DNA from: Tannerella sp.
GTDB taxonomy: Bacteria; Bacteroidota; Bacteroidia; Bacteroidales; Tannerellaceae
Assembly: GCA_031268395.1 (NCBI GenBank)
Contig: JAIRXI010000025.1
Coordinates: 1-19,718, forward strand
DNA: 19,718 bases
Direction of reading: 5' to 3'
In this document: in pieces, positions 17,822 through 19,718 of the stretch
How the letters are laid out: each line of letters starts with the position of its first letter
Position numbering within the stretch: position 1 is the stretch's first letter
Position numbers and translations under genes: made by a program
The notes under the pieces: model-generated
Seen by the model: only the letters and a program-made list of their open reading frames with translations
Told to the model about the DNA's origin: nothing
Database searches by the model: none

Positions 17822-18025
17822 GCCGACCTTCGCTTAAGTATCCGGCGTTTTCGCGCAAACAGCGTTTGTCGCGTTTCAAATTCATGCGCCGGCGTCTTCA
17901 TATCAACGACCCGGCACTTTCGGGCAAACTGTGTTTGCCGCATCTCAAATTCATCTGCCGGCGTCTTCGTATCAACGACCCGGCGCTTTCGGGCAAAAAA
18001 CCATGTGTTTGCCGCATTTCAAATA
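17822..18025. repeat. Three tandem units of about 66-69 bp, two hairpins each, upstream of susC
   Basis: Units begin at about 17822, 17888 and 17957 (steps of 66 and 69 bp). Each has hairpin A (GCCGG-C-GTC against GACCCGGC in units 2 and 3; CGCCG against CGGCG in unit 1) and hairpin B (GGCAAAC-TGT-GTTTGCC at 17923-17939; CAAAC-AGC-GTTTG in unit 1; GGCAAA/TTTGCC with a longer loop in unit 3). They are joined by a TTTCAAAT or CTCAAATTCAT linker. The arms changed together between unit 1 and units 2-3, which suggests pressure on structure. The array lies 44 bp upstream of susC and downstream of the orphan gene. It may be a leader or control region for susC, the orphan gene's 3' UTR, or a mobile palindrome. 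I saw no TAnnTTTG box for susC in the 339-bp gap. Confidence 0.75.
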
Positions 18026-18060
18026 ATCAGTAGTTCTACTCTTTTCCTATCCGTCCATAA

Positions 18061-18138
18061 ACTGTAAATTTAAAGGGTTCAACACTCCGTTTTTTTCGAA
18101 CTGTCAATGTAAAGGGTTCAACGATCCTTTTTTTTCGC
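18061..18138. repeat. Two tandem 39-bp copies over the 3' end of the orphan gene
   Basis: Bases 18061-18099 and 18100-18138 are near-identical: ACTGT, AAAGGGTTCAAC and a T-run followed by TCG. The second copy contains the last codons and TGA of the gene at 18118-19107, and the other lies just past the stop. Since 39 is 13 codons, the repeated stop stays in frame. On the minus strand the gene's last codons pass through eight A (18128-18135). Confidence 0.8.
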
Positions 18139-19107
18139 GTTCAGTTCGGCTTGTATTCGTTCGATTTCCTGGCGGTGGCGTTCGATTTCCTGCATTTGAG
18201 CATCGAAGTCTTCGTGGTGCTGGCGGTCGAGGGTGGCGGCGAGGTCTTCGGTAGTGAGCGGCATGGAGAAAGTCGGTTCGTTGCCGAAGCGCGGTTCGTC
18301 GTCGATGTGGCGGAGGAAGGCGGCCTTGATGAGGTACTGCTGTCCGTGCGAACCTTTGGGCATCGGAATGTCGTTGTGCAGGCGGGTGCTCATTTGCCGG
18401 TACACTTCCGTTACGCCGTCGGCGGCGGTGATGACAATGAGGACCTGCCGCACGCCCGGAGGCCATCCGTGGGCCACCTGCGCGGCGTTTTCGCCGGCCG
18501 ACTGATCGACCACGGCGCGGATAAAGTCCGCATTGATAACCGTCACCTTGACTTCGGCCAGGATGTCGGTGGCTTCCATGCGGCCGCGGCGTCCGCCGAT
18601 TTCACCGGGGAGCAGGAAGCCGAGCAGATGCACGTCGTCGGCCGTGAGAATGCCGGCGGTGTACTGTCCGTAGGCCCATACCCTGACCTGGAGCAGGCAG
18701 AGTCCGACGGTGGAGGCGAGCAGGGTGTTGCGCTGGGTGCGGTCGGCCGGCGAGCCGGCGTTTGTGCGGCAGAGGCTGATCAGTTCCTGCAGCCGGTTGC
18801 GGTTGCCGGTGAGCTGTGTCAGCAGCTCGGGCGGCATGGCCCAGGTCTGCTGGTGCGCCTCGGCCATCCTGACCACATTGTCGATGTTGCTGAACCGGTC
18901 GTCGATGCTGTCGTGCCATCGCCGGACGCTGGCCAGCACGCTCTCCGGGATGTTGCTGCGTCCCGGCACGCCCGGCGCAAAGGCGAAGGCGAGTCCGCTG
19001 CCGGCTGCCGGAAACAGCCCGAAGTCCGAAAGGGCGGTTAATAACTCATTTGCCTGGTCAAAAATCGTGTTGGCCGGCAGGTTCATGATCTCAAATAAAC
19101 TGTTCAT
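18118..19107 (-). CDS. Unrecognised 329-aa protein, lineage-specific family suspected
   Basis: I do not recognise the family with confidence. There is no signal peptide or convincing membrane span. Residues 1-155 look mainly helical, with a small Gly/Ala/Pro-rich stretch (34-49). Residues about 160-285 look beta-rich, with LLGFLLPGEIGG, TDILAEVKVTVINADFIR and VRQVLIVITAADG, and could form an Ig-like or sandwich domain. Residues 290-329 are a charged coiled coil (EIERHRQEIERIQ) ending in KKKDR. The start ATG at 19107 is the first in frame; MNLPAN at residue 8 is an alternative. A TATAAT (19132-19137) lies about 25 bp upstream and the CACGTG array begins about 68 bp upstream. No catalytic motif or helix-turn-helix is visible. 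Codon use and GC resemble the neighbouring genes. Confidence 0.75.
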   Translation of the reverse strand: MNSLFEIMNLPANTIFDQANELLTALSDFGLFPAAGSGLAFAFAPGVPGRSNIPESVLASVRRWHDSIDDRFSNIDNVVRMAEAHQQTWAMPPELLTQLTGNRNRLQELISLCRTNAGSPADRTQRNTLLASTVGLCLLQVRVWAYGQYTAGILTADDVHLLGFLLPGEIGGRRGRMEATDILAEVKVTVINADFIRAVVDQSAGENAAQVAHGWPPGVRQVLIVITAADGVTEVYRQMSTRLHNDIPMPKGSHGQQYLIKAAFLRHIDDEPRFGNEPTFSMPLTTEDLAATLDRQHHEDFDAQMQEIERHRQEIERIQAELNAKKKDR

Positions 19108-19131
19108 AATGCTTGTAATTAAGGGATTAAT

Positions 19132-19137
19132 ATTATA
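19132..19137 (-). promoter_or_regulatory. Possible TATAAT-type promoter element for the 329-aa gene
   Basis: TATAAT on the minus strand, about 25 bp before the ATG at 19107 and just downstream (in the gene's sense) of the CACGTG array. It does not fit the Bacteroidetes TAnnTTTG consensus, and no -33 box is clear, so this is tentative. Confidence 0.3.
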
Positions 19138-19174
19138 GGGTTTTCGCTGTTCATGCGTATTTTCAAAACCGGCG

Positions 19175-19411
19175 CACGTGAGATGATTTTCATTTCACGT
19201 GAGATGATTCTTATATCACGTGAAATTACTTCTGTTTCACGTGAAGATGGTTTTATGTCACGTGAAGTTAAATCATCTTCACGTGATATGATTTCATTTT
19301 CACGTGAAAACGGTTTCATTTCACGTGAAGTCAGTTTCATTTCACGTGAGATGAAAACCGTCTCTCGTGAAACTGAAGTTATCTCTCGTGAAACGGTTTT
19401 AATCACATGTG
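19175..19411. repeat. Array of twelve CACGTG-type palindromes at exact 21-bp spacing
   Basis: Perfect CACGTG cores start at 19175, 19196, 19217, 19238, 19259, 19280, 19301, 19322 and 19343. Degenerate cores follow in the same register at 19364 and 19385 (CTCGTG) and 19406 (CATGTG). Every step is 21 bp, two helical turns. All perfect cores but the first sit in TCACGTGA, and several reach TTTCACGTGAA. The 13-bp spacers vary but are AT-rich. The core equals the centre of the ParB site parS (TGTTTCACGTGAAACA); the best unit (around 19238) matches 13 of 16 positions. The array is directly upstream of the 329-aa gene. The decayed copies are all at the far end from that gene. Confidence 0.95.
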
Positions 19412-19718
19412 AGGATTTTTCGCAATTTACTGTTTTCGCCGTCGGTGGACGGGAAGGCAGCGTAAAATGTCCGTATGGCATCTCCGGTATTCCCGGTTGA
19501 CGGTTGACGGCAGACAGGCGCGTCTTCATTTGAGAGAGAAGGCTTTCCGGCGCGGCAACGGCGTTGCCTCTGTCAGCGGAACGTTTCTCCTGCAAGGTAC
19601 GGAAACGGACAAAACAGGATGCCTCCGCCACCCTAACGCGGCGGAGATGAATGACTGTATGATTATAATTTGCTGGTTTATAGCAAGGTGATGGGGGGGG
19701 GGGGGGTGAAATGTACAG
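19412..19718. other. Gene-free right edge with a G14 tract
   Basis: No gene can be supported here; a 74-codon plus-strand frame (19467-19691) has no recognisable features. A perfect 7-bp stem, CTCCGCC (19623-19629) with GGCGGAG (19640-19646), has no T-run. TATAATTTG (19664-19672) is one base off the TAnnTTTG pattern. Bases 19693-19706 are fourteen consecutive G, which could vary in length during replication and alter expression of a gene beyond the edge. Confidence 0.6.

Follow-up and report, generated by a model that had tools for sequence, protein, structure and literature searches.

Plasmid iterons and iterated centromeres are phased direct repeats on which proteins are bound along one face of the DNA, and the repeat RNAs of type III toxin-antitoxin systems (ToxI) are built of longer repeats that are folded as RNA pseudoknots. 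The array described here shares phased direct repeats with the former, but it occurs in multiple copies upstream of a gene family (gene B, below) for which no plasmid or phage match was found. It resembles the type III systems in that its tandem repeats immediately precede a gene (67 bp away here, and present in 32 of 41 loci), yet its units in the window are dyads of a DNA type and the structure model of the gene B product brought no toxin-like match. With parS of the ParABS system it has a CACGTG core and a dyad in common, whereas parS is a 16-bp palindrome that lies at mnmG/uvrC in relatives and the array consists of 12 phased units, at least three mismatches from parS, with other cores at sister loci. 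Within the Bacteroidales, BrickBuilt of Porphyromonas gingivalis is described as a minisatellite/MITE whose copies all belong to a single family of 23-nt units and which carries IS5-like terminal inverted repeats (PMC4596501). Compared with BrickBuilt as described there, the array is likewise an intergenic tandem repeat of two-turn units without spacers, with imperfect copies, dyad or stem-loop potential and dispersed copies with a shared flank on the gene side; it differs in its period of 21 bp, in a unit sequence that varies by locus and in being tied to one gene family.

The window, the whole stretch of 19,718 nucleotides analysed, is contig C187 of a Tannerella sp. assembly of 3.13 Mb in 425 contigs (82% complete), and the array near its end (Table 1) is genuine. 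An earlier note had read 12 sites at an exact 21-bp interval, nine of them with an intact CACGTG, and all were recovered: CACGTG begins at 19175, 19196, 19217, 19238, 19259, 19280, 19301, 19322 and 19343, in steps of exactly 21 bp, and the degenerate cores CTCGTG (19364 and 19385) and CATGTG (19406) continue the register. Nine of the 13 occurrences of CACGTG in the window fall within the array; when the whole window was shuffled by dinucleotides, 2 of 200 trials reached 13 or more, and 20,000 mononucleotide shuffles of its last 600 bp gave a maximum of three. The units are imperfect, intergenic, tandem direct repeats that abut without spacers, and their dyad extends beyond the 8-bp core, with a score that was reached in none of 300 trials with permuted unit columns. 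The same note held that the 8-bp core and the spacing are constant while the spacers vary, which stands for the 21-bp spacing and fails for the core, since 3 of the 12 units depart from CACGTG and variants recur in C228 and C153, its sister copies (CACGGG in the first two units of each, CACGAG in one further unit of C153). Its reading of the array as phased dyads subject to some constraint nonetheless agrees with the comparison of C187 and C228, which differ at 2 of 80 core positions and 14 of 118 spacer positions (Fisher p 0.018); three smaller comparisons of core and spacer involving C153 gave p values of 1.0, 1.0 and 0.15.

Table 1. Positions of the array, its flanks and the adjacent gene in the window
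Feature	Position	Strand	Remark
Tandem array	19175..19420	.	12 units, each of 21 bp; cores in order CACGTG (nine), CTCGTG (two), CATGTG (one)
Gene B	18118..19107	-	329-aa protein of an uncharacterised family
Spacer between array and gene B start	19108..19174	-	67 bp
Far-side flank of array	19421..19500	.	translation recurs in P0004 (1246-bp contig) beside C228-type units

Two more copies of the array occur in the same genome, both at contig ends (93% identity over 254 bp and 88% over 243 bp), and of gene B C153 retains just the first codons and C228 retains none. The flank on the gene side is common to C187, C228, C153 and C292; positions 19120-19174 are nearly identical in C228 and C153, and the homology of C292 to the spacer is weaker (71% over 90 bp). 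On the gene-B strand this spacer terminates in an A/T-rich stretch common to gene-B loci, and a conserved A/T-rich stretch stands immediately before the start of gene B in 21 aligned loci. The far-side flank is probably shared with another array copy, because its translation recurs beside C228-type units. Terminal inverted repeats were not found for the focal copies, whose far ends are missing at contig ends, and a self-comparison returned matches of the array only. Elsewhere in the window, a second 21-bp array (unit AATTCCCGATTTCCACAGGGA) occupies positions 1-130 at the contig start, and its tail recurs at arrays in C313 (L137) and, inverted, in C20 (L105), where the array is flanked by inverted ends of about 34 bp as a MITE-like element. 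Tandem repeats of 69 bp (17842-17997) and 39 bp (18060-18137) were also seen, the latter overlapping the 3' end of gene B. A homopolymer G/C tract lies at 19694-19707, with counterparts upstream of gene B in L132, L224 and L233; tracts of 9-14 located upstream of gene B, at a distance of about 550-650 bp, were present in 4 of 35 loci and in 20 of 2000 random windows, and these may possibly be phase-variation tracts.

Gene B belongs to a widespread family (418 protein homologues at E<=0.001, and seven matches in its own genome) that has no counterpart in Pfam, NCBIfam or PADLOC. The search of PHROGs gave weak matches only (best E 0.098), and the search of solved structures by sequence gave a single match at E 0.84. 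In the structure model, a helical bundle (residues 55-161) is followed by a predicted beta domain of FN3-like fold (177-284), and residues 286-328 form a C-terminal helix; in the fold search, FN3-like matches came from residues 177-284, the part that was searched by itself. At one locus (G465:C160:314-1147) a 68-residue piece of gene B inside the FN3-like part is repeated four times at 210-bp steps.

The array and gene B are linked. The sample comprised 43 gene-B loci drawn from 72 match rows, mainly the longer matches, and 41 of them had the 170 bp or more of upstream DNA used for autocorrelation. A lag-21 array lies within 1.1 kb upstream in 32 of these 41, and in 28 at a stricter threshold, whereas random windows drawn from the genome of C187 had one in 55 of 1000 cases; lags of 16-20 and 22-30 were found in 0-1 of the 41, and nine loci were without an array at the threshold used. 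By TRF, 29 of 43 loci had a 21- or 42-bp array in the 1 kb upstream and 3 of 43 an array of any kind downstream, flanking DNA being short in some. Where the start of gene B was mapped, the array was present in 21 of 26 loci and absent from L225, L228, L234, L236 and L259.

Position, period and dyad symmetry recur at the gene-B loci, while the unit sequences are on average barely above permuted controls. Symmetry exceeded that of column-permuted controls (p<=0.05) in 23 of 33 arrays and did not in the other ten. Outward from the axis, the Watson-Crick share per pair runs 0.60, 0.57, 0.77, 0.69, 0.68, 0.67, 0.54 and then down to 0.23, so that pairing is high across about seven pairs, which gives each unit a dyad of about 14 bp. 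Unit consensuses vary by locus (TCAC|GTGA, TTTCCC|GGGAAA, CCCGT|ACGGG, CTCGC|GCGAG, CTCTA|GAGAG and others), many having ATC...GAT shoulders. Across 528 locus pairs, mean unit similarity was 0.39-0.43 where gene B identity was below 70% and 0.487 in the 14 pairs of higher identity; permuted units averaged 0.366, with a 95% point of 0.421; the rank correlation with gene B identity was weak (0.22, from non-independent pairs). Turnover of the units is fast but incomplete, because unrelated units occur in L223/L224 and L226/L231, where gene B is 90% and 78% identical (weak arrays being among these), and related units (similarity 0.57-0.59) in three pairs at 76-78% gene B identity. At a separate site in two species (L105:16048-16235 and L146:17996-18245), a 21-bp array stands beside the same gene pair, the neighbouring proteins being 81% and 69% identical, and the units are unrelated; the array therefore persisted or re-formed at one place.

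The reading we prefer, with a probability of roughly 0.42, is that of a non-coding, rapidly turning-over palindromic array 5' of a multi-copy gene, which would offer a dimeric DNA-binding protein a phased series of docking sites. What was observed at the gene-B loci is an array directly upstream, with an exact 21-bp period, dyad symmetry and turnover of sequence; a function at the level of DNA, docking by a dimer and an effect on gene B are inferred from these. A putative dimeric protein would dock on each dyad, the two helical turns of each unit would align successive dimers along the same side of the helix, and the array, once filled, would control or insulate gene B, while homogenisation of the units would let the core drift as spacing and symmetry persist. 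The data are compatible with helical phasing, given the exact 21-bp period of the gene-B loci. In favour of docking sites are the lag-21 enrichment, the upstream position and the symmetry reported above, the cores that differ by locus, the lower divergence of core than of spacer and the largely negative tests for coding. The suggestion in the earlier note that the sites may serve another dyad-binding protein beside the adjacent gene fits best of its proposals. Against docking stand the nine loci without an array and the ten arrays that did not beat permuted controls, as well as the frequency of period-21 and period-23 arrays away from gene B. The DNA-binding partner was not found, and the model of gene B itself is FN3-like with no recognised DNA-binding fold. 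A sequence-specific protein would also need to co-evolve with each core, and a functionless palindromic minisatellite could travel with gene B.

That last possibility is a close second, doubtful in itself and nearly as well placed as docking sites: slippage and palindrome-directed copying would make dyad repeats of 21-23 bp throughout the genome, and cassettes of gene B would carry one of these selfish or neutral minisatellites. A TRF survey (period 15-40, at least 3.5 copies) of 486 kb of the genome found 27 arrays, 16 of period 21, eight of 23 and one each of 18, 20 and 22. In 57 contigs taken by number (388 kb) there were 18, nine of period 21 and seven of 23, and therefore, if these contigs are typical, about 145 in the whole genome. 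Such arrays occur across this genome generally; gene B, which adjoins 3 of the 16 surveyed period-21 arrays, is a place of concentration at which the period is always 21. The second common class, of 23 bp, includes L084:1-196, L085:364-465, L085:3399-3598, L090:9182-9319 and L124:7265-7397, some with hairpin-like units. Also in favour of a minisatellite, some surveyed arrays sit inside MITE-like elements with inverted ends of about 34 bp, copies exist without an intact gene B (C153 and C228), and the MITE-borne BrickBuilt is comparable (PMC4596501). Two observations weigh on the other side: gene-B loci show lag 21 and not 20, 22 or 23, despite the frequent 23-bp arrays in the genome, and the bias is strongly upstream (29 of 43, against 3 of 43 downstream).

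Beyond this genome, three TCACGTGA at 21-bp steps were found in 40 stretches of named genomes (L021-L060), from Amycolatopsis, Hormoscilla, Treponema, Planctomycetaceae and others, and in one Amycolatopsis genome all 13 of the TCACGTGA pairs found were spaced by exactly 21. A link of these arrays across phyla was considered and rejected, no gene being shared within 2.5 kb except for one weak match of 31%; gene B was found in 3 of 11 searched genomes with TCACGTGA triplets. In a scan of 395 genomes sampled from the phylum, a TCACGTGA pair spaced by no more than 30 turned up in 15, and among the places listed in that scan the 21-bp spacing was confined to the present genome, several of the others being parS pairs. 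A literature search of open-licence PMC papers returned no description of such an array.

Less likely is a cis element of which symmetry is conserved and sequence is free: each copy of gene B would have its own 21-bp-phased array with a freely drifting address, and its reader would see the shape of the dyad (a cruciform or paired half-turns) instead of its sequence, or each locus would have a matched recogniser in a lock-and-key arrangement among paralogues. An RNA element is improbable; here transcription of the array would yield a series of hairpins, which would serve as an attenuator or as an RNA that partners the gene B product in the manner of the repeat RNA upstream of type III toxins. 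The upstream position of the array, the ability of the units to self-pair and the conserved inverted repeats, read by eye, that C292 and C308 have in common on the far side of the array would suit it. The window has, however, no Rfam match at gathering thresholds, and array pairs on the gene-B strand number 276 for G-U and 411 for A-C, with no excess of G-U, which argues against a hairpin RNA from that strand only, as the opposite strand turns the A-C cells into G-U.

Somewhat further down is a coding minisatellite, in which each 21-bp unit would supply seven codons to a heptad-repeat protein encoded just before gene B (in the window, with heptads of the SRE type). In many loci an open frame of the gene-B strand runs through the array, and in several it ends 14 bp before gene B; the C187/C228 pair favours coding, with eight synonymous and eight non-synonymous differences in the gene-B-strand frame (pS 0.156, pN 0.049). 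The two strands are nevertheless alike, in a comparison that is not fully independent as palindromic units make them so: a stop-free frame spans 32 of 33 arrays on the gene-B strand and 31 of 33 on the other, with third-position shares of 0.34 and 0.35 and synonymous shares of 0.245 and 0.267. Comparisons of the flanks were without clear third-position bias, and the plus-strand frame of the window has one homologue found, P0004. The heptad protein, suspected on the plus strand and then on the gene-B strand, was dropped on the likeness of the strands and the lack of a clear codon signal in the flanks.

Near-perfect parS sites (0-1 mismatch) number 13 in 11 of 41 genomes of the genus, an array lying near at least one of these, in G009, and a parS lies between mnmG and uvrC in all three relatives' loci read (L261, L262 and L263, at 1501). 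The window is not at that location, since the Pfam matches of its nine tested genes are not mnmG or uvrC. The scan for full sites that the earlier note had proposed succeeded in relatives but found no site with 0-1 mismatch in the 82% complete genome itself, which leaves a small residual doubt; a site with three mismatches at C152:607-622 was rejected as the mnmG/uvrC parS, neither gene being on that stretch. Mapping against parB, also proposed, was uninformative: in the closed genome G030 an exact parS (1,418,558) and parB (36,652) are 1.38 Mb apart, and distance to parB therefore does not discriminate. Despite the CACGTG core, the ParB gene in the genome (one TIGR00180 match over the cut-off, on C288) and the lack of a near-perfect parS there, the earlier note's cluster of parS sites, a ParB centromere, is very unlikely, given a best array 16-mer with three mismatches to TGTTTCACGTGAAACA (the next best has four), the separate parS of the relatives and the other palindromes of sister-locus arrays, among them CCCGGG, CGTACG and GCGCGC. 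An array of CACGTG is by itself no evidence of parS.

Should the linkage to gene B prove functional, spacing and symmetry would be kept while sequence turns over, in an element tied to a widespread and unnamed protein family, and these loci would offer a testable system for the co-evolution of repeat arrays and their readers.
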